In this document: one piece after another, positions 7,010-22,144 of the stretch | How positions within the stretch are numbered: the first letter of the stretch is position 1 | Layout: every line of letters begins with the position of its first letter | From: a virus | Virus record (IMG/VR): IMGVR_UViG_3300028274_000045 | Location: 1-23,122 of that record | Strand: one strand, 5' to 3' | DNA length: 23,122 nucleotides | Program-made: the position numbers and the translations under genes | Notes under the pieces: generated by a model | What the model was told of the DNA's origin: nothing | Seen by the model: only the letters and a program-made list of their open reading frames with translations | Databases searched by the model: none

Positions 7010-7038
7010 ATTATATCATAAAACTTAAAACAATTTAA
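7010..7038 (-). promoter_or_regulatory. Minus-strand promoter of the scaffold-capsid-tail operon
   Basis: Reading the minus strand, a -35-like TTAAAT (7038-7033) lies 17 bases before a perfect TATAAT (7015-7010), which is preceded by TGA, an extended -10 element. Transcription would start near 7003, about 40 bases before the scaffold ATG. It follows directly after the terminator of the packaging/portal unit, so the capsid and tail genes can be expressed independently and more strongly. Confidence 0.7.
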
Positions 7039-7070
7039 GATATAATTAAGTTATATTACAATACAATTAC
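7032..7070 (+). repeat. 39-bp promoter-like repeat, copy A
   Basis: These 39 bases are identical to 22106-22144, 15 kb away in the same orientation; a diverged copy lies at 16653-16690. The element contains TATAAT (7041-7046) and TATATT (7052-7057) 11 bases apart, followed by an ATTAC sequence. The near-palindrome TATAA-TTAAG-TTATA lies at its centre. The other copies stand just before plus-strand genes, which argues for a phage promoter or operator. Here no protein gene follows on the plus strand, only the small-RNA candidate. Confidence 0.7.
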
Positions 7071-9675: not shown

Positions 9676-10902
9676 TTATCCAAAACTCAGTGATTGTCTT
9701 GCTACTCTTTGTTCAATTATACCAAAAACTCTAACCAGAAAATAACCCATAGAGTCACTCCAGTCGTCATTTGTCGAAGCCCCTGCAAATTTCTCAGGTT
9801 GTCCTGAAGAATCATATGCCTGCTGTTCTAAAGCTCTTGCCACATTCGGACACTGCTTATGATTAACCTTAAATCTGTTTTTCTGAAGTAGTAGGTTCAC
9901 AGCATTAACTCTGTCTGCTACTTTACCGTTTCTTTTGGGAGCATTGATATTTAGTCCTGACCTTTGAAGCAGTTCTATATCACTCATTGAGGCATTCGTC
10001 TTCCCCTGATAACCTGAAGCATCTGGATACATAGTAATGTTCGAGTGCCTAGGGTATCTTAGTTTTATCTGCTCTATTATATCATAAGTATCAGCAGATG
10101 TGAACTCATCCACAAGTATAGGATTGTTATCCTCTATCACGAACACTGATGAACAGCAACCACCCACATTGAAATCCTGTCCTATGTGTAGGGCATCTTT
10201 GGGACGGATGGTTCTGTCAGTGCTGTGAGTAAATCTATCATAATGAGAATATACTGACCCTGATGTTAAGTTCACAAACTCACCATTCAGATATGCTGCT
10301 AGAAGTTCTTCAGGATACTGCTCTCTTAGCTGTGCTATATAAGAGTCTGGTAGGAACTTATTATCTGTTGTCTTCGCTTTAATAACATGCCAACGACCAT
10401 TCTGACTCTGCTCATATAACCACTTGAACCCTTCAGGTGTCGATGTAGTATCTATCAGTGCATTCTCTATAGACCTATTTCTACCTAATATCTTATTGTA
10501 CGCTAATTCCATCTTGTCTTTAGGCACAAGGTCAGCCTCATCTATCCAACTGTATGCTGTTTCATAACCAATAATCAATTCGGGTTCTGACAGAGTACGG
10601 AAGAGAATCTGAGAGTTGTTTGGTATCGTTATAGTCTTATCTACTTTATTCAACTTAAACTTTATGTTGAGGTTGTTAAGTGCTTCTGTAAATATAGGTA
10701 GTGATACATCTCTAATCAGGTTATATGTAGGCAGATACACTGCTACTCTATGCTGAGGGTGCTTCAACTTCTGTATGATAGTCTTAATAACCCCTGCATA
10801 GGATTTACCAGAACCAAACCCAGCTACTAACATCGTGTTAGTTGTTGAGTTCAGATACTCCAGCTGGTGTGGTAGTAGTGATAGTGCTGCTTTGTTAGAC
10901 AA
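9676..10902 (-). CDS. terL: Terminase large subunit
   Basis: A 408-residue packaging ATPase and nuclease. Walker A is GFGSGKS at 28-34, Walker B YSWIDEAD at 117-124 with the catalytic Glu, and the coupling motif TTSTPEG at 152-158. The C-terminal RNase H-like nuclease shows three acidic sites: D243 in GQDFNVG, D294 in YPDASG, and the DDWSD cluster at 379-383. It translocates DNA into the prohead through the portal and cuts concatemers. The gene starts inside the end of the small-subunit gene (8-base overlap). The order small terminase, large terminase, portal, MuF is conventional. Confidence 0.95.
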   Translation of the reverse strand: MSNKAALSLLPHQLEYLNSTTNTMLVAGFGSGKSYAGVIKTIIQKLKHPQHRVAVYLPTYNLIRDVSLPIFTEALNNLNIKFKLNKVDKTITIPNNSQILFRTLSEPELIIGYETAYSWIDEADLVPKDKMELAYNKILGRNRSIENALIDTTSTPEGFKWLYEQSQNGRWHVIKAKTTDNKFLPDSYIAQLREQYPEELLAAYLNGEFVNLTSGSVYSHYDRFTHSTDRTIRPKDALHIGQDFNVGGCCSSVFVIEDNNPILVDEFTSADTYDIIEQIKLRYPRHSNITMYPDASGYQGKTNASMSDIELLQRSGLNINAPKRNGKVADRVNAVNLLLQKNRFKVNHKQCPNVARALEQQAYDSSGQPEKFAGASTNDDWSDSMGYFLVRVFGIIEQRVARQSLSFG

Positions 10903-11197
10903 GGCTAATCACTATCTCACTCGGTGTGTTCTGTTCTTCTTGTTGGTTGTCATTGTACTCAAACTGATGTCTAAGTAAGAACTGCGTAAAGTTACCACTC
11001 TTAGGGTTTGTAAGCCCGTTGTCTATTAACCACGCCTCACATCTCTCTAATGCCATTGTGTATGTAGTGGGGTCTTCGTTTAGTTTTGTTATAAAAGTAT
11101 CTTTTGTTAAATCTAAATGAAGACACAAGTTGTTAAATGTTTTTAGTGCTTCTGATTTATCAAAGAAGTCATCTATTCTTTTCTGTATAAGTGCCAT
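10895..11197 (-). CDS. terS: Terminase small subunit (putative)
   Basis: A 100-residue protein overlapping the large terminase by 8 bases. It reads as a short helical protein with the segment LDLTKDTFITKLNEDPTTY followed by a helix and NGLTNPKSGNFTQFLLRHQFEY. This pattern resembles small terminase / DNA-packaging proteins, which recognise the packaging site and regulate the large subunit. It is the first gene of the packaging transcript, next to the repeat-rich region at 11.2-12.0 kb that could contain its binding site. AAAAGGAAA precedes the ATG. Confidence 0.72.
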   Translation of the reverse strand: MALIQKRIDDFFDKSEALKTFNNLCLHLDLTKDTFITKLNEDPTTYTMALERCEAWLIDNGLTNPKSGNFTQFLLRHQFEYNDNQQEEQNTPSEIVISLV

Positions 11198-11214: not shown

Positions 11215-11223
11215 ATTATAGCA
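11215..11223 (-). promoter_or_regulatory. Extended -10 promoter of the terminase operon
   Basis: On the minus strand TGC-TATAAT ends at 11215, about 18 bases before the terminase ATG at 11197. The -35 region is not recognisable, as expected for an extended -10 promoter. It diverges from the plus-strand TATAAT elements at 11251 and 11317. Confidence 0.55.
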
Positions 11224-11227
11224 TAAT

Positions 11228-11376
11228 AAAAGCTGTTGTGGGGTCTGTAATATAATATAACATCATTACATCAATACTTTTAGGTCCTAAAAAATCTGTT
11301 GTGGGTATCTTTTATATATAATATAACATCATTACATCAATATTAATTGAGCCTAAAAAATCTGCTGTGGGGGCAA
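11228..11376 (+). repeat. Tandem promoter-like repeat, 2.5 units of 63-66 bp
   Basis: Each unit begins with a CTG(T/C)TGTGGG block (at 11233, 11296 and 11362). In the first two units this leads to a 25-base sequence identical in both (11252-11276 and 11318-11342) that contains TATAAT and ATCATTACATC. The third unit keeps only the first block. TATAAT boxes are at 11251-11256 and 11317-11322 on the plus strand. The ATCATTACATC part also occurs after TATAAT at 16669-16690, so these are probably two tandem phage promoters pointing into the non-coding region to the right. Confidence 0.7.
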
Positions 11377-11567
11377 ACCGCCCTACTGCGAAAAAACTCC
11401 CATACCCCTAAATATTAAGAAAAAACGCTAAAATAAGAAGGAAATAGGGTAGGGCGTCCAAAATAATTAAATTTTGTATTGGAAACTATAATTTCCAAAC
11501 TATTATTAATAATGCCCTGCTTTGTAAGAGTGGATTTTTTAGGTTATTTTCGCGTGCTTTGATACCC
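11342..11567. other. Non-coding stretch with inverted repeats
   Basis: No credible open reading frame on either strand. An 8-bp inverted repeat CGCCCTAC (11379-11386) / GTAGGGCG (11449-11456) encloses about 60 bases. A 7-bp hairpin TTGGAAA (11479-11485) / TTTCCAA (11492-11498) follows. The parts CCCCTAAA (11405) and AATAGGGTAGGGC (11443-11455) recur in the control region near 13.7 kb. Confidence 0.6.
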
Positions 11568-11714
11568 AAAAAAGCTACAAAAAAGCTACAAAAAAGCTAC
11601 AAAAAAGCTACAAAAAAGCTACAAAAAAGCTACAAAACAATGCTAATCAAATGCTAATCAAATGCTAATCAAATGCTAATCAAATGCTACAAAATAATGC
11701 TAATCAAATGCTAA
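11568..11714. repeat. Phased 11-bp repeat array (A-tract / GCTA iterons)
   Basis: GCTA occurs 13 times, at 11574, 11585, 11596, 11607, 11618, 11629, 11642, 11653, 11664, 11675, 11686, 11699 and 11710. The spacing is 11 bases except for two steps of 13. The first six units are AAAAAAGCTAC; the following ones are mostly AATGCTAATCA. The period matches about one helical turn, so sites lie on one face of the DNA. The A6 tracts in phase should bend the DNA. The array is non-coding (11 is not a multiple of 3). It resembles replication-initiator iterons or terminase/partition binding arrays. Confidence 0.9.
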
Positions 11715-11889
11715 AAGATTACGTTGTTCGCTAATTACATAGAAAGTCTTCTATTGGCTATACAGCATATAAGAGCATCTAAAAAGAGCTTTATATATAT
11801 ATACTTTGTTTACTGTATTAGTAAAAAGTAAGTAATAAAGAAATAAAAGAGCTAGAACACCCCTACAGCAATGCCTAGCACCTGATTAC
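11715..11889. other. Non-coding A+T-rich stretch
   Basis: No open reading frame. GATTACGTT occurs at 11717-11725 and again at 11884-11892; in both places it is followed by CG and TTACAT within about 15 bases, suggesting a diverged repeat. A run of alternating TA at about 11791-11802 would melt easily. Confidence 0.5.
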
Positions 11890-11973
11890 GTTAGCCGTTA
11901 CATTGATACCTTATTTAGTGTTAAGGTAATATATTATAATAACTTAATATTATCACTAAAGTAACGGCGTAAC
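11890..11973. other. Branched inverted-repeat element
   Basis: GTTAGCCGTTAC (11890-11901) pairs with 11961-11973 over 12 bases with one bulged G. Inside it, TACCTTA (11907-11913) pairs with TAAGGTA (11922-11928) around an 8-base loop. TAATAT (11927-11932) can pair with ATATTA (11947-11952), partly competing with the previous stem. The whole can fold as a junction of about 84 bases in RNA or extruded DNA. No gene lies within it. It could be part of an origin, a structured RNA or a recombination site; the sequence does not decide. Confidence 0.55.
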
Positions 11974-11984
11974 AATAAAGAAAT

Positions 11985-12013
11985 GAAAAAGGGTGAGACA
12001 AAAGCCCCACCCT
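11985..12013 (-). terminator. Terminator of the accessory operon
   Basis: AGGGTG (11990-11995) and CACCCT (12008-12013) form a 6-bp GC-rich stem. Read on the minus strand, the stem is followed by a TTTTTC run (11990-11985). It lies 16 bases after the stop of the last accessory micropeptide gene and is well placed to end that operon. Confidence 0.75.
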
Positions 12014-12028
12014 CTTAATAAATATTAG

Positions 12029-12094
12029 CTACCCAAATACGGTTAAAATACCAACTACAACACCTATAATAAATAATAATAACATCCTAATCAT
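12029..12094 (-). CDS. 21-residue hydrophobic membrane micropeptide (putative)
   Basis: ATG 12094-12092, preceded at 8 bases by a GAGGG ribosome binding site inside the end of the 170-residue gene. It encodes MIRM followed by LLLFIIGVVVGILTVFG, essentially one transmembrane helix with a basic residue at its N-terminus. The frame ends in TAG 16 bases before the terminator. Such peptides can insert into the inner membrane and modulate host proteins or act as small holin-like peptides. Support is the ribosome binding site, the operon position and the composition. It is short, so it may be fortuitous. Confidence 0.45.
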   Translation of the reverse strand: MIRMLLLFIIGVVVGILTVFG

Positions 12095-12599
12095 AGTAAT
12101 AACCCTCAGCACAAAATGGATAGCTATCACCCATATATTTAATGATAACATCGCAGCAGCATTCTAGCAGTAAAACCCGACTTTTAAAGATCTCTTCGTA
12201 ACTATATGTAGGGATATAACCATCCTCAGCAGTAGTGACTAATCGAACATGCTCCCTTAATAATTCCTTTAAATCATTTTCTCTAATATATTTTATAATA
12301 GCACCACCCCCAGCAGCAGTACTGACAATCATATAATCCGTTGAATAATTGTAATAGGTTGGACTCACCAAGTCAACAAAAGCCAACTCAACTCCAACCT
12401 CATTACGGAATACTTCCAACAAAGCTTTACAGTAGCCGACTTTAGCTTCATTCCATACTGATATACCAACATCATGAAGCATGTCATGATCCAAGTCCCC
12501 CGAATCTTCATTTATAGCACCAACAGAACACGCAACCGCATATTCTACTAAACTGTCATGTATTGACTCATAGAAACCCCCAAAATTAAATTTAATCAT
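12087..12599 (-). CDS. Acidic accessory protein, unknown function (170 aa)
   Basis: A 170-residue protein with about 28 acidic against about 11 basic residues. The N-terminus FNFGGFYESIHDSLVEYAV, a central SPTYYNYSTDYMIV segment and a C-terminal triple cysteine (147-149) followed by an aromatic/acidic end (GYYYD) are its notable parts. I recognise the general look of proteins encoded on phages and plasmids but cannot name a family or function. Strong negative charge and early-operon position would fit a DNA mimic or an inhibitor of host defence; that is inference. It overlaps the preceding 123-residue gene by 8 bases, so the two are probably translated together. Confidence 0.75.
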   Translation of the reverse strand: MIKFNFGGFYESIHDSLVEYAVACSVGAINEDSGDLDHDMLHDVGISVWNEAKVGYCKALLEVFRNEVGVELAFVDLVSPTYYNYSTDYMIVSTAAGGGAIIKYIRENDLKELLREHVRLVTTAEDGYIPTYSYEEIFKSRVLLLECCCDVIIKYMGDSYPFCAEGYYYD

Positions 12600-12963
12600 C
12601 CAACGCCCCTAAATATTCCACCATGCTATCAATGCATTCATTCACATATTTACTATAATAAAAATATTGGCCTAATTGTATAGCCCCGTGATAATCAAAT
12701 TTATCGGGCGTACCAAACTCATCTATAGCCTCTTCAATATAACCATAATTATCTACCGCCCACTTCCTTAAATCATAGTTGTAAATATCAATCAAACTGT
12801 TAACAATTTCATCGACACCCCCCGAGTCGTTGACACCATCTCCTAACCACTCTTTAAGGTCTTCAAACTCTTGATATTCTAGTACCTCAATCACTTGATC
12901 TTTATAATCGCCCTCAAAATCTTTAAATATCTCTCTTAAATCACTATTATTATTTATTATCAT
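12592..12963 (-). CDS. Very acidic accessory protein, possible DNA mimic (123 aa)
   Basis: A 123-residue protein with 17 Asp and 13 Glu against 8 Lys/Arg, giving a net charge of about -22, plus many Tyr and Trp. Sequence blocks include DLREIFKDFEG, EFEDLKEWLGDGV, LIDIYNYDLRKWAVDNYGY and EEAIDEFG. Proteins of this size and charge, encoded early by phages, include DNA-mimic inhibitors of restriction enzymes and other DNA-binding proteins. I see no specific ArdA or Ocr motif, so this is a hypothesis only. It overlaps the 170-residue gene by 8 bases and follows the 107-residue gene after 16 bases. Confidence 0.75.
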   Translation of the reverse strand: MIINNNSDLREIFKDFEGDYKDQVIEVLEYQEFEDLKEWLGDGVNDSGGVDEIVNSLIDIYNYDLRKWAVDNYGYIEEAIDEFGTPDKFDYHGAIQLGQYFYYSKYVNECIDSMVEYLGALDD

Positions 12964-12979
12964 TTTTATACCTTTGTTA

Positions 12980-13303
12980 CTAATTGTTTTCTATAGCATA
13001 CATTAAAATGCAGTTATCATTTGTAGCTATAATATATACACCCTTATGTTTAAATACTTTACCGTTTAAATCAAGTCTTGACTCTATGGCTTTACCATCT
13101 ATAGTAAATGAAGACTTAATAATATTGCTATTATTATTTGATCTAGCAATTCTATCGTAGTTGATATTAGGCCTTATGGTTTCTATTTGTTTATCTAGTA
13201 GCTCGATCGTAGCTTCAACAGTCGTATTAAACTTACTACCTAATAATGCACTTTTGTTATTGATAAGTAGTGACTTAAACTCTTTTAGTGTGATTTTATT
13301 CAT
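12980..13303 (-). CDS. Accessory protein, unknown (107 aa)
   Basis: A 107-residue protein. The N-terminal half is helical (ITLKEFKSLLINNKSALLG, then EATIELLDKQIETI). An Asn-rich linker (ARSNNNSN) leads to a C-terminal part of beta-strands (IIKSSFTIDG, VFKHKGVYIIAT, CILMYAIENN). No family recognised. An AAAAGGAAT ribosome binding site precedes the ATG. It is the third gene of the accessory operon. Confidence 0.7.
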   Translation of the reverse strand: MNKITLKEFKSLLINNKSALLGSKFNTTVEATIELLDKQIETIRPNINYDRIARSNNNSNIIKSSFTIDGKAIESRLDLNGKVFKHKGVYIIATNDNCILMYAIENN

Positions 13304-13313
13304 GTTATTCCTT

Positions 13314-13490
13314 TTATTTTTGTATCATTTCTTTAGTATTAGCATTCATGTTATTTACTTCTTTACTTCTAACTAACATATCATTAATTACATCTATCAA
13401 TAAATGATTTAAGTAATCTAAATAAAATAATTCACAATAAAGCATTTCGTCTCTTATTAGTGTCTCGAGTGTTTTGTTAGTTAAATTCAT
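13314..13490 (-). CDS. Small accessory protein, unknown (58 aa)
   Basis: ATG 13490-13488 with AAAGGG upstream; stop TAA at 13316-13314, about 10 bases before the next gene. The product begins MNLTNKTLETLIRDEMLYCE and is predicted helical throughout, with a hydrophobic/aromatic middle (LFYLDYLNHLLIDVI) and a polar end. It overlaps the upstream membrane peptide gene by 14 bases. No family recognised. Operon fit and ribosome binding site support it. Confidence 0.6.
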   Translation of the reverse strand: MNLTNKTLETLIRDEMLYCELFYLDYLNHLLIDVINDMLVRSKEVNNMNANTKEMIQK

Positions 13491-13608
13491 TTTTATACCC
13501 TTTTAATGTCTCTTTTTTTGTTAATCCTGTAATAGCACACCTATCATCACCAACTAAAATAATTCCTAATATAGAAATTATAATACCTATTAGTAAAACT
13601 TCAACCAT
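13477..13608 (-). CDS. 43-residue single-pass membrane peptide
   Basis: ATG 13608-13606 with a strong AAGGAG ribosome binding site. Residues 3-19 (EVLLIGIIISILGIILV) form one transmembrane helix. They are followed by GDDRC and a short basic cytoplasmic-looking tail (KKETLKGYKNEFN). It is the first gene after the consensus promoter at 13639-13667, so it is probably made very early and abundantly. Function unknown. Candidates include a membrane-targeted host modulator or superinfection-exclusion peptide. Confidence 0.65.
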   Translation of the reverse strand: MVEVLLIGIIISILGIILVGDDRCAITGLTKKETLKGYKNEFN

Positions 13609-13638
13609 GTTAACTCCTTCAAAATTAAATGTAACCGT

Positions 13639-13667
13639 ATTATAATATAATATTAATATATTGTCAA
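13639..13667 (-). promoter_or_regulatory. Perfect sigma-70 promoter of the accessory operon
   Basis: Reading the minus strand, TTGACA (13667-13662) is followed after exactly 17 bases by TATAAT (13644-13639). No other promoter in the window matches both hexamers at optimal spacing. It drives the 43-, 58-, 107-, 123-, 170- and 21-residue frames to the terminator at 11985. Such a promoter would be recognised immediately by host RNA polymerase after infection, or constitutively in a prophage. Confidence 0.85.
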
Positions 13668-13968
13668 TACTTTATTAAAAGAATTTTATAATTTGTTGTT
13701 GTATAACATTTAAACCCCTAAAAAGCATATACAATAGGGTAGGGTAGGGCATAATCACTATTTTTTGTTAAATTTTGGCATTTTTCACTCTTTTTTACAT
13801 TTTTCGTGAAATTTTTCGTGAAATTTTTTATATAAAGTTTGTCGAGTCCATTTTATAAAACCCCTCGAGTCCTGTCGGGTTCATTTTATAAAACCCCTCG
13901 AGTCCTTTAATAACTCTTTAAGCTATACTTCTATAGAATTACACTCTTACAAAATAAAAAGGATAAAA
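13668..13968. promoter_or_regulatory. Divergent control region between accessory and replication operons
   Basis: About 300 bases without a gene. It holds a telomere-like GGGTAGGGTAGGG (13737-13749), two TTTTTCGTGAAA-type units around 13801-13826, the two 33-bp tandem repeats at 13841-13906, and -10-like sequences TATACT (13924-13929) and TATAGAAT (13932-13939) before the first replication gene. No clear -35 accompanies these, so the plus-strand promoter may need an activator or be controlled through the repeats. Confidence 0.55.
13841..13906 (+). repeat. Two 33-bp tandem repeats, probable operator
   Basis: Units 13841-13873 and 13874-13906 differ at only two positions. Each carries ATTTTATAAAACCCC, flanked by TCGAGTCC-type half sites at 13842, 13865, 13875 (variant TCGGGTTC) and 13898, spaced 23, 10 and 23 bases. 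The repeats end about 60 bases before a gene for a ribbon-helix-helix protein. That protein class typically binds tandem half-sites about one helical turn apart and represses its own promoter. Confidence 0.75.
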
Positions 13969-14085
13969 ATGAAATCAATACAAGTACCATATGAAGTATG
14001 GAAGCAGTTAAAACAGTTAGCATTAGATAAGGACACAACAATAGCAGGTGTTATAGCATCACTATTAGAGCAAAACAATGACTAA
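13969..14085 (+). CDS. Ribbon-helix-helix (Arc/CopG-type) regulator, 38 aa
   Basis: ATG 13969, with AAGGAT just upstream; TAA at 14083-14085, overlapping the primase gene start by 8 bases. The product is a minimal ribbon-helix-helix protein. A strand KSIQVP (2-7) would pair with its partner in the dimer and enter the major groove. Helix A is YEVWKQLKQLALDKD (8-22) and helix B TTIAGVIASLLEQ (23-35). The pattern of polar residue, hydrophobic residue, Pro, then a Leu-rich helix is characteristic. It is the first gene of the replication operon and stands next to the 33-bp repeats, so autoregulation is likely. At 38 residues it is near the lower size limit of the family. Confidence 0.8.
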   Translation: MKSIQVPYEVWKQLKQLALDKDTTIAGVIASLLEQNND

Positions 14086-16279
14086 AATACAAGAAGCAGC
14101 AAGAGATATACAGGATAAATATGGTTGGAACTTACTACCTTTAGGGCAGTTTGTAAGGGCAGCAGATGGTAAGAAAGAAGTACAGTTTTTAGCTTCTTAC
14201 ACACAATACAGGGATAAGGTATATCCAATAGAGCAGTTTCCAGCGAATACACAGCACATCTTAATAATGACAGGTTACCTATCTAATTTAACAATTATTG
14301 ATATAGATTCAACAGTAGCATTATTAGAGCTAGAAGAGTTCCTGCAGGATACTGTAGATAACTATTGTAACTATATTATAGCTACAACTAAGGGATTCCA
14401 GCTATTCTATACATATACACCAGAACTGAAATCAATAGTTAAGTACCAACAAAGTGATATAGATGTACTGAATGATGGTTATCAGACCTTTGCCAGTCCT
14501 CTAAATCCAGGTTATACAGTACTGAAAGAAGAAGCACCTCAGCCAGTTCCTGAAAAGATATTAGAGTTTTTCTCAAATATTGAGACTATTAATGCTGTAT
14601 CAGACAACATCAGAAAGTCCAATGAGTCTTATTATGTAGAACCTTTCGTAGAAGTTGTAGAGCAGTTTATAGCAGCTAAGAGTATATCGAGTAAACTAAA
14701 AGCTACTTTAGAGGCTAAATTATGTAGAAAAGAGTTCGAGGGTCATACATTAGATGAGTTTGGTAAGGGTAACAGAAGTACATTTTTAGCAAGAGTAGCA
14801 GCATTATTATCAGCAGACCCTACAATATCTAAAGAAGCATTCGAGGCATTCATGCTTAAACTGAATATACAGTACACTAAAATGCCTGATTTAGAGTTCT
14901 CTAAAAGATACATCAGTCGCTACACACATAATAAAGCAACAGTAGTAGATGATATGACTGGTGAGTACTTACCCCTCTGGTCTTACAACCCTCAATGGGA
15001 GCTGGAGCATGAGAAACACATCTCAAATACAATGCTACAGGATCATAACTACAAAGTGTGGAGAGATTTAGAGGATTCTAAGTATGCCCTGTATCACATC
15101 CCGTCAAACTCAGCAGCATTATTAGCTAAACAGATGCTGTTAGACCAGCTGAAGCATATGGGAGAGCGTGTAGGAGATGATGGTATTCAGACATCTATGT
15201 TTCCAGCAATAGCAACAGTGTTTGACCCTACAAAGCCGTCACCATTCTTTAAAGATGAGTTTGGGAGAGAGTATTACAACTCATTTAAGAGAACGCCAAT
15301 GATGGAACACTTCTTAACAGCTACAAGTAGAGATACTTTACCACCCTTCATTGCTAAAGTGTTAGCTAATATAATGCCTGAGACAGATACAAGGGAGTTA
15401 TTTCTACATAATTTAGCACATCACCTAAGATACCTACATGTTGGTATGACTGCTCAGATATTTATAGGTCAGAAAGGTGGTGAAGGTAAAGGTGTTATTT
15501 TAGATGAGCTAATATCTCTGATTTATGGTGATTATTACTCTAAAGTATCTACTAAAACATTCACATCTAACTTTAATGGTGAGCTGAAGAACAAATTGTT
15601 TGTGTATTTAGATGAATCTGATGGTAAATTTAACGATACACTATTAGAAAACCTGAAAAGAATCATAGGGAACTCAACTTATGAACTTAGAGTTAAAAAT
15701 AAAGGCACTACGAACACTCCCAATAATATGTTGATAGCTATATCATCAAATAAAGATGTTCCAGTAACTTTAGACTCAAACAGGGATAGGAGATTCAATG
15801 TTTCTGTGACAAGACCTATACCACTAATAGATTATGAATGGTTCAGAGAAGTTAAGAAGACAGTATCAGTTAAAAGACAGCTGGAGAATGAGATAAAGGG
15901 TTTTATAGAGTACTTAGCTGGTCTTAAAACAACAGATATTCAGTATGCTGAGATTATTGAGAATGAAGCTAGGTCACAACTAAAAGAAAACTCTATGACA
16001 ACAATAGAAGTAGTAGTTGAGTACCTTTTAGCTCAAGATTTTGCAGAACTTAGAGGGTATTTAGGGGATTTAATGGTTGATATGTACGAAGATAGAGGTT
16101 TTATAGAGATTTCTAAGGTAGTAGAAGCATTAGAGCAAAGAGGAATTAAAGCACAACGAAAAGTAACACCATTAGTTAGTAAGCATCCTAAAGGTAAAGA
16201 CAAATTTGGTGAGCCTAGATGTAAAGTACTAAACTTAGATGGTAAAACATACAGATGTTTAGATATGAGAGCTGAATAG
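14078..16279 (+). CDS. Primase-polymerase with SF3 helicase domain (NrS-1-like / DUF5906-like)
   Basis: A 733-residue replication initiator/primase-helicase. The N-terminal archaeo-eukaryotic primase-type domain has the acidic motif TIIDID (Asp75 and Asp77), then TTKGFQLFY at 103-111 and a third acidic segment SDIDVLNDG at 126-134. The usual His of motif II appears to be Gln108. The C-terminal superfamily 3 helicase has Walker A GQKGGEGKG (464-472), Walker B LFVYLDES (507-514), a sensor segment MLIAISSNKD (551-560) and an Arg finger region DSNRDRRF (566-573). Size and layout resemble the single-protein primase-polymerase-helicase of phage NrS-1. Here a separate DNA polymerase follows, so this protein probably primes and unwinds. 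The ATG lies inside the end of the RHH gene. Confidence 0.88.
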   Translation: MTKIQEAARDIQDKYGWNLLPLGQFVRAADGKKEVQFLASYTQYRDKVYPIEQFPANTQHILIMTGYLSNLTIIDIDSTVALLELEEFLQDTVDNYCNYIIATTKGFQLFYTYTPELKSIVKYQQSDIDVLNDGYQTFASPLNPGYTVLKEEAPQPVPEKILEFFSNIETINAVSDNIRKSNESYYVEPFVEVVEQFIAAKSISSKLKATLEAKLCRKEFEGHTLDEFGKGNRSTFLARVAALLSADPTISKEAFEAFMLKLNIQYTKMPDLEFSKRYISRYTHNKATVVDDMTGEYLPLWSYNPQWELEHEKHISNTMLQDHNYKVWRDLEDSKYALYHIPSNSAALLAKQMLLDQLKHMGERVGDDGIQTSMFPAIATVFDPTKPSPFFKDEFGREYYNSFKRTPMMEHFLTATSRDTLPPFIAKVLANIMPETDTRELFLHNLAHHLRYLHVGMTAQIFIGQKGGEGKGVILDELISLIYGDYYSKVSTKTFTSNFNGELKNKLFVYLDESDGKFNDTLLENLKRIIGNSTYELRVKNKGTTNTPNNMLIAISSNKDVPVTLDSNRDRRFNVSVTRPIPLIDYEWFREVKKTVSVKRQLENEIKGFIEYLAGLKTTDIQYAEIIENEARSQLKENSMTTIEVVVEYLLAQDFAELRGYLGDLMVDMYEDRGFIEISKVVEALEQRGIKAQRKVTPLVSKHPKGKDKFGEPRCKVLNLDGKTYRCLDMRAE

Positions 16280-16662
16280 TGCAAGAAAGCACAATAAAAC
16301 AGTACCTACCAGCCCTTCATGAGGGTCTGAGGGTCTTTAAAGCTGATGATTTGTGGTTTTACTCTTTAGAAGGTAAAGGTTTAGTGCTTTCTATGGATGG
16401 TATGGACATTCAAGTTTATATCTTGCCTGAGTATAGAGGTCAAGGAATGTCGACTAAGTATATTAGACAGATAGTTAGAGAAGAACTGAACAGACATACA
16501 ACTTTAGAGGTGTCTTTCTTGGATGATTGGTACAAAAAAGCATTCTTTAACGCTCTTCCACACTCTGATATACTAACTTTTGATACTCCGAATGGTCTTT
16601 ATATGGTAAATGCAAGGAAAAAAGGGAAATTTATAGAGTTTCCTTATGATTATAAGATATAA
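16279..16662 (+). CDS. Short GNAT-like protein
   Basis: A 127-residue protein beginning at GTG 16279, which overlaps the TAG stop of the primase gene (TAGTG). Residues 44-70 (IQVYILPEYRGQGMSTK and onward) match motif A of GNAT N-acetyltransferases: a beta-strand followed by the acetyl-CoA pyrophosphate-binding turn R-G-Q-G-M and an alpha-helix. The rest is short for the family. The N-terminal part contains GKGLVLSMDGMD strands, and residues about 75-100 look like the later strand/helix with DWYKKAFFNAL. It may acetylate a small molecule or protein, or only bind acyl-CoA. Position in the replication operon suggests a nucleic-acid or host-modification role, which is inference. The stop lies within promoter repeat 16653-16690. 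Confidence 0.6.
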   Translation: MQESTIKQYLPALHEGLRVFKADDLWFYSLEGKGLVLSMDGMDIQVYILPEYRGQGMSTKYIRQIVREELNRHTTLEVSFLDDWYKKAFFNALPHSDILTFDTPNGLYMVNARKKGKFIEFPYDYKI

Positions 16663-16690
16663 TTAAGTTATAATACAGTATCATTACATC
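16653..16690 (+). promoter_or_regulatory. Promoter-like repeat, copy C, before the ssDNA-binding protein gene
   Basis: TATAAT occurs at 16658-16663 and 16669-16674 within a sequence sharing TAAGATATAATTAAGTTATA with the copies at 7032 and 22106. It shares ATCATTACATC with the units at 11252 and 11318. It overlaps the stop codon of the GNAT-like gene. The leader that follows contains a possible ACCGA (16697-16701) / TCGGT (16722-16726) hairpin and then AAGGAG before the ATG at 16765. Confidence 0.65.
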
Positions 16691-21823: not shown

Positions 21824-22107
21824 AAGAACAAGACATACAAAAGAAGATAACTAAGTATCTGGAGAAACGAGATGCTTATGTAGTTAAGATTGTAACAGCT
21901 AGTAAAGCAGGAGTACCTGACATTTTAGCTTGTTACAAAGGCGTGTTTATGGGTATTGAGGTTAAGAAACCTGATACTAAGAAGAACACATCTAAGTTAC
22001 AAGACTACAACCTAAGAGCCATTATTGAGGCTGAAGGTTTTAGCACAGTTGCAGCATCTGTAGAAGATGTTGAAGAATTTTTAGAGTTTATAGACCAGAT
22101 TAGATAA
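21820..22107 (+). CDS. VRR-NUC domain nuclease lacking a standard start codon
   Basis: From 21796 to 22107 one frame is open and encodes a full VRR-NUC domain. It has an N-terminal helix KEQDIQKKITKYLEK, then KIVTASKAGVPDILACYKG and MGIEVKKPDTKKNTSKLQDY. The catalytic set is Glu3, Asp34 (in GVPD), Glu47 and Lys49 (in EVK), and Gln61. No ATG, GTG or TTG lies upstream of the catalytic residues. The best start is ATA at 21820, 5 bases after AAAGGA. It overlaps the helicase TAA as ATAA, where neighbouring junctions have ATGA; ATT at 21817 or 21814 are alternatives. That gives 95 residues. This family cuts branched DNA or Holliday junctions. The domain is certain; the start is not. Confidence 0.78.
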   Translation: MKEQDIQKKITKYLEKRDAYVVKIVTASKAGVPDILACYKGVFMGIEVKKPDTKKNTSKLQDYNLRAIIEAEGFSTVAASVEDVEEFLEFIDQIR

Positions 22108-22144
22108 TTTAAGATATAATTAAGTTATATTACAATACAATTAC
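22106..22144 (+). promoter_or_regulatory. Promoter-like repeat, copy B (39 bp identical to 7032-7070)
   Basis: The repeat begins within the stop codon of the nuclease gene. It contains TATAAT (22115-22120) and TATATT (22126-22131), then ACAATTACATC, and ends about 20 bases before the ATG at 22164, with AAAGGA between. It probably provides independent expression of the coiled-coil and HTH genes. Confidence 0.65.

Follow-up and report, generated by a model that had tools for sequence, protein, structure and literature searches.

How the small terminase (TerS) recognizes viral DNA is an unsettled question. In T7, short repeats of 7-bp units, SRL and SRR, lie at the concatemer junction near the packaging ends; to our knowledge, no curvature is known for them. 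The cosB region of phage lambda, whose TerS is gpNu1, carries three R sites and the bends I1 and I2, with a conserved nicking core near terS, and N15 carries one R site. The I2 bend is static (PMC4856287). Between lambda and phage 21, the TerS recognition helix and the R sites of cosB differ, cosN and cosQ are conserved, and R2 is inverted (PMC4669245). In SF6 and SPP1, the helix-turn-helix (HTH) motifs of TerS are about one helical turn apart and bent pac DNA is selected (PMC4737164). DNA wrapping around TerS is disputed, and according to a recent review both the wrapping and the threading models fail to explain TerS specificity (PMC9611059). Short direct repeats also occur at loci of other kinds. 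The SPP1 origins consist of direct repeats and an A+T-rich DUE, with oriR beside moron genes in the late region (PMC6316719), and in ParR/parC one iteron is bound per ParR dimer, the DNA wraps a ring, and the arrays are split (PMC5016525).

We analyzed a 23,122-base virus record (the window), classed as a linear fragment, from an uncultivated tailed phage. The window holds two leftward operons, a late one (putative terS and terL, followed by head and tail genes) and an accessory one (about 12029-13608, with an ocr-like protein among its products). A replication operon runs rightward and encodes a ribbon-helix-helix (RHH) protein, a primase-helicase, a gp2.5-like SSB, a PolA-type polymerase and an exonuclease. 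The genes that bear on the argument are these:

9676-10902, minus strand: large terminase gene, terL, overlapped by the putative terS
10895-11197, minus strand: putative small terminase of 100 aa, named by its position and its overlap with terL only
13969-14085, plus strand: 38-aa RHH protein, Arc/MatP-C like, a rival reader of the array
14078-16279, plus strand: primase-helicase, the C-terminal part of which is homologous to the SF3/D5 helicase of NrS-1 polymerase

The nearest TerL matches were uncultivated contigs, and identity to Guernseyvirinae and others was about 40%. Megablast of the window found no DNA-level match to phage records, Rfam and tRNA searches of the window gave no match, and a scan of a genome collection with TerL returned distant alphaproteobacterial relatives only and no host. 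The sequences compared here are metagenomic contigs, and the array locus is covered by one close relative, L002. Probing the relatives with the accessory proteins gave nothing. One accessory protein (12592-12963) has weak similarity to ocr-like anti-restriction proteins (E 1e-4), and the promoter of the accessory operon is a perfect TTGACA-17-TATAAT (13667-13639).

About 750 bp of apparently untranscribed DNA separate the terminator of the accessory operon from the terS promoter, and the array sits here, 370 bp upstream of the putative terS. An earlier reading made from the letters of the window (the sequence-only reading) had placed it between the terminase operon start and the accessory operon end, in agreement with this position; such nearness to terS-terL is expected of a cos or pac region. 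The array falls into two halves:

11567-11637, plus strand: A half, six AAAAAAGCTAC units at 11 bp with phased A6 tracts and the strongest predicted curvature (from repeat and curvature analysis)
11638-11714, plus strand: B half, seven GCTA units of the AATGCTAATCA type; two 13-bp steps lead into this half and break it

The thirteen GCTA words are at 11574, 11585, 11596, 11607, 11618, 11629, 11642, 11653, 11664, 11675, 11686, 11699 and 11710, so the steps are 11 bp five times, 13 bp, 11 bp four times, 13 bp and 11 bp (ten 11-bp and two 13-bp steps). Six exact AAAAAAGCTAC units span 11568-11633, and AATGCTAATCA occurs exactly five times (starts at 11639, 11650, 11661, 11672 and 11696) beside two partial units. 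Tandem Repeats Finder called the halves separately, at 11567-11637 with 100% matches and at 11639-11714 with 88%. The self-identity of the array at lag 11 was 0.83 over 130 bp, compared with 0.49 as the highest value at any lag from 5 to 24 in 50 dinucleotide shuffles of the window; this periodicity is far beyond chance. Coordinates and shuffles thus confirm the thirteen GCTA units, the 11-bp period and the just two 13-bp steps that the sequence-only reading had described, as well as its two unit types that share GCTA, one of them with A6. Its claim that the units are spaced on one face of the helix held within each half but not over the whole 136 bp: because the steps of 11-13 bp exceed 10.5 bp per turn, the array drifts by about 10 bp, about one full turn. 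Coding capacity, which it had denied, is negligible, the sole ORF being one of 32 codons that starts at a TTG and runs across the A half. The A unit has no other exact copy in the window, copies of the B unit elsewhere in the window were not above chance, and an exact scan of viral contigs gave no further copy of the B-half unit.

Curvature was predicted with two dinucleotide models, the Bolshoy wedge and De Santis, by planar sum, and the resulting magnitudes should not be read literally. The A half was the most curved 60-80 bp of the 23-kb window by the Bolshoy wedge, and by De Santis it ranked 20-35 of 23,000 (top 0.2%). When the intergenic region was shuffled 300 times with its dinucleotides kept, the curvature of the A half was never reached in either model; the array-less flanks had ordinary predicted curvature, and the predicted bend was abolished when the unit was set to 12-16 bp. 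The array therefore shows the features of phased A-tract curved DNA, namely a near-helical A-tract repeat and a bend above the composition control. For the A half alone a net bend of about 180 degrees was predicted, and for the B half alone one of about 100, but the entire array came to only about 97, because the halves curve in nearly opposite directions in the planar model. The curvature that had been suspected from the A-tracts was thus borne out as a predicted intrinsic bend by both models, but the strong bend is limited to the A half. A second curved region was found at 13756, ahead of the primase operon. Upstream of terS in the relatives, predicted curvature exceeded that of nearly all shuffles in L002 (reached by 2-3% of them) and in L014 (reached by 1-2%), was mixed in L042, and showed no excess in L004 and L007.

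L002, the closest relative that covers the array region, has TerL 85% and TerS 70% identical to those of the window; a search for further relatives with the TerS alignment returned only L001, L002 and L004. The order of elements is kept in L002 from the 3' end of the accessory operon through the terminator, the A+T-rich stretch, the array and its GGGTAT edge to the 37-bp palindromic element, the 55-bp block, the repeats and the terS promoter. These elements around the array are, in the window:

11987-12016, minus strand: intrinsic terminator that closes the leftward accessory operon, shared with L002 over 28 bp at 93% identity
11789-11838, no strand assigned: A+T-rich stretch of low stability distal to the array; the least stable DNA of L002 is at the matching place
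11530-11567, minus strand: array edge, which on the terS strand reads GGGTAT...CAC-CG...ACC-AAAAAAT-C and is moderately conserved in L002; L001 ends here
11472-11508, no strand assigned: 37-bp element centred on the palindrome TTGGAAACTATAATTTCCAA; its L002 counterpart (836-872) has 89% identity and is inverted relative to its neighbours
11354-11408, minus strand: 55-bp block rich in G+C; its L002 counterpart has 85% identity (E 5e-13) and the same orientation
11220-11372, minus strand: 66-bp direct repeat region, lying between the terS promoter and the 55-bp block; the L002 counterpart is the inverted second array
11215-11224, minus strand: extended -10 promoter of terS, TGCTATAAT, read by eye; the L002 counterpart is TGGTATAAT

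The RNA structure of the 55-bp block was not above that of shuffles. We also considered the array as an UP-element or operator of the terS promoter and rejected this as its primary role, because the array is about 350-500 bp upstream of the -10.

At the array position, L002 carries thirteen copies of an unrelated 11-mer, AAGATTCTAAA (0-1 mismatch), eight on the minus and five on the plus strand, and the two sets bracket two conserved islands. Its array consists of TTTAGAATG at 9 bp and then TTTAGAATCTT at 11 bp. Read in reverse complement, TTTAGAATCTT is AAGATTCTAAA, and this word recurs five times beyond the islands, to about 55 bp from the terS -10. Most units are spaced by 9 or 11 bp (mean about 10). 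The 11-kb L002 contig has 14 AAGATTCTAAA matches (0-1 mismatch) where 0.95 would be expected, and 13 of them are in this region. GCTA as such, which the sequence-only reading had supposed one protein to contact, is not conserved: L002 uses AAGATTCTAAA. The position was indeed conserved in L002, though with another repeat, but L004 and L007 (TerL about 56-57% identical) have no array and no repeated motif ahead of terS; the array is therefore lineage-specific. L014 has AAGCTA eight times, four on each strand and dispersed, and L042 has CCACAA seven times upstream of terS; in each case none of 200 shuffles reached the count. As far as the contigs allow us to judge, the rule in this lineage is a phage-specific repeated word before terS, kept in position and not in sequence, and the rule is not universal.

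These relatives bear on whether the array is a neutral tandem expansion in non-coding A+T-rich DNA that no protein reads. The units are nearly identical internally, the arrays differ among relatives, and the two more distant relatives are without an array. Moreover, contig L001, from a 99.9% identical phage (L092:14300-14312 = L001:1-12), stops at the edge of the array and there reads CCCAATAAT in place of the window's CCCAAAAAAG, a difference that suggests array turnover and hints that the composition of the array may vary within the phage population. However, L002 has an unrelated unit at the same place with roughly helical spacing, its copies are inverted across a conserved core, and the motif of L014 is dispersed in mixed orientation. 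Slippage alone cannot produce the inverted second set of L002, and mainly because of this set we consider neutral expansion quite unlikely. The nearest relative keeps the site but builds it from an entirely different repeat, which favours a protein-binding array. In one sample, the array and most of the accessory operon (window 11572-13422) fall between L084:1 and the end of L092, two contigs that come from one and the same phage, as if this segment were a variable island.

As the reader protein we prefer the putative TerS. The sequence-only reading had called the array iteron-like and named multimeric readers, and candidates are indeed encoded: the putative TerS, an NrS-1-type primase-helicase and the small RHH protein. 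The 100-aa protein is probably TerS, and it would bind the 11-bp units. Family, PDB and fold searches (including Foldseek) gave no match for it, and its AlphaFold model is weak (pLDDT 62); the helices of the model, at residues 14-27, 32-41 and 43-59, are consistent with an HTH. Between the window and L002, 30 of the 100 residues differ, and 11 of these differences fall within the 16 residues 36-51 (p 0.0006 if placed at random, with the interval picked after looking); this segment is the predicted end of helix 2, the turn and the start of helix 3. The array motif and the putative TerS HTH both differ between the window and L002, and again between L014 and L042. From about codon 74 of TerS onward, the DNA of L014 has 87% identity to that of L042, whereas their TerS N-termini and upstream DNA are unrelated; because all upstream DNA and the replication genes are exchanged too, this covariation is suggestive only.

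We hold, with about even confidence, that the array is the TerS-binding part of a packaging-initiation region, cos or pac. This reading is preferred because the conserved candidate core, the repeated and partly inverted putative sites, the predicted bend and the divergence of the putative TerS HTH follow the pattern of cosB in lambda, 21 and N15 and of pac in SPP1 and SF6. As in lambda cosB, short repeats and predicted bent DNA accompany a conserved candidate core near terS, and as in lambda-like cosB generally there are inverted copies; the putative sites and the putative TerS recognition helix may likewise diverge together beside a core that stays. An array of thirteen contiguous units, about one to a turn, is unlike the three R sites of lambda and the one of N15, and the cohesive end here is putative. 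As in the pacL-pacC-pacR region of SPP1 and SF6, read by an HTH-ring TerS, direct repeats and predicted bent DNA lie beside a candidate cut region near the terS promoter, and in L002 the repeats are on both sides of it. SPP1 pac has only a few repeat boxes and its isolated DNA-binding domain is little sequence-specific, whereas the array here is long and exact. The array lies near putative packaging ends as do SRL and SRR of T7; unlike T7, the window shows no terminal repeat.

Each 11-bp unit would offer one HTH site per turn, and the phased A-tracts would bend the DNA in advance, allowing a ring or oligomer of TerS to engage many sites simultaneously. TerS anchored in this way may position TerL on a nearby conserved core, for which the 55-bp block (11354-11408) is the best candidate, and the concatemer would be cut there. 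The block would then be a cosN- or pacC-like cleavage core, with a genome end at the array region, and TerS on the array may also dampen the terS promoter. Position, the other repeated motifs of the relatives, the inverted copies of L002 around a conserved core, the cluster of TerS substitutions and the predicted curvature count for the packaging reading. Against it count the unmatched putative TerS, the same kind of terS-terL pair without an array in L004 and L007, the A+T-rich and origin-like character of the region, the single close relative at the locus, and the dispute over TerS wrapping.

That L001 ends at the array, and L005 and L006 near terS, only hints at a genome end. L005 and L006, from different samples, start within 2 bp of each other (L005:1 and L006:1; compare L007:9387-9389), within the loop of an inverted repeat that precedes terS, and this start is possibly a physical genome end. 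When the contig ends in the group of L005, L006 and L007 were tried as genome ends, no further contig supplied the opposite side. Widely spaced inverted repeats just past a TATAAT are present in the primase-terS intergenic regions of L004 (4210-4251), L007 (9358-9405) and L014 (2395-2427), with the arms listed by program in L004 and L014 and read by eye in L007.

A more specific form of the packaging reading, which we regard as doubtful, is a nucleosome-like, sequence-specific TerS track, in which thirteen HTH sites of the same core, about one per turn on 146 bp of partly pre-bent DNA, would lie on a TerS ring, and relatives would keep the position, the near-helical spacing and the number (13 and 13) and swap the word and the TerS HTH together. 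A natural array of this kind, intrinsically bent and with one site per turn, together with a relative that uses another word, would make the wrapping model directly testable by swapping arrays and TerS HTHs.

The same repeats could instead be iterons of a replication origin, bound by the NrS-1-type SF3 primase-helicase or another initiator, with the adjacent A+T-rich DNA unwinding. The direct repeats do adjoin A+T-rich DNA of low stability, and the least stable DNA of L002, L014 and L007 is in the primase-terS or array intergenic region. The locus thereby resembles SPP1 oriL and oriR and the SaPI/P4-type iteron origins, which combine direct repeats and A+T-rich DNA with a phage-encoded initiator or helicase, and SPP1 oriR is a precedent in a late region (PMC6316719). 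The helicase part matches NrS-1 (E 1.8e-24) and, by fold, the SaPI5 primase-helicase. On its minus strand the B half reads TTTGATTA five times, one letter off the NrS-1 recognition site TTTGGTTA, an agreement with an estimated chance of about 5%; this lead stays weak because the homology is confined to the helicase half and the N-terminal PrimPol domain of NrS-1 is unaligned. In the N-terminal part of the primase, a DxD is kept and a Gln (TTKGFQLFY) presumably stands at the usual catalytic His of AEP enzymes, in common with L004, L007 and L014. Unlike the origins named above, the array is beside terS and 2.4 kb from the primase gene, although adjacency to the initiator gene is common and not universal. 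The primase has a curved, repeat-bearing upstream region of its own:

13620-13968, no strand assigned: second curved intergenic region, with a 33-bp repeat in two copies containing TCGAGTCC, ATTTTTCGTGAA in 2.5 copies, and spaced T-tracts

This region, ahead of the RHH and primase genes, is an alternative origin candidate. GC skew, which the sequence-only reading had proposed as a check, turned near 13.8 kb and not at the array, though the skew follows gene direction. On balance we find an origin at the array possible but rather unlikely.

The small RHH protein, or another phage repressor, might also read the array as a tandem site for transcription control or as a partition array. RHH proteins can coat short tandem repeats, and the geometry of ParR/parC (PMC5016525) also speaks for this reading. 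The locus is like ParR/parC and omega/parS in its many contiguous short direct repeats, its two blocks and a phage-encoded RHH protein, the 38-aa gene ahead of the primase, and no such ORF was found between primase and terS in L004, L007 and L014, all without a long array. Unlike those systems, the array is away from the RHH gene and no partition motor (ParM, ParA or TubZ) was recognized among the ORFs inspected, a subset by profile, in this fragmentary genome; no strong promoter overlaps the array. We consider this reading quite unlikely. Should the array be an origin or an RHH site instead of the packaging site that we prefer, it would still be a major cis-acting locus in this uncultivated lineage of phages.

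A 39-bp intergenic element was also noticed in the window, on one strand, in two exact copies 15 kb apart (7032-7070 and 22106-22144), with a third copy at 85% (16649-16687) and perhaps a fourth at 69% (13904-13942); it may be a promoter or other regulatory element. Absent from the window and from L002, an intein-like insertion is present at the Walker A motif (GFG/SGKS) in the TerL of another relative, L003 (55-2067).
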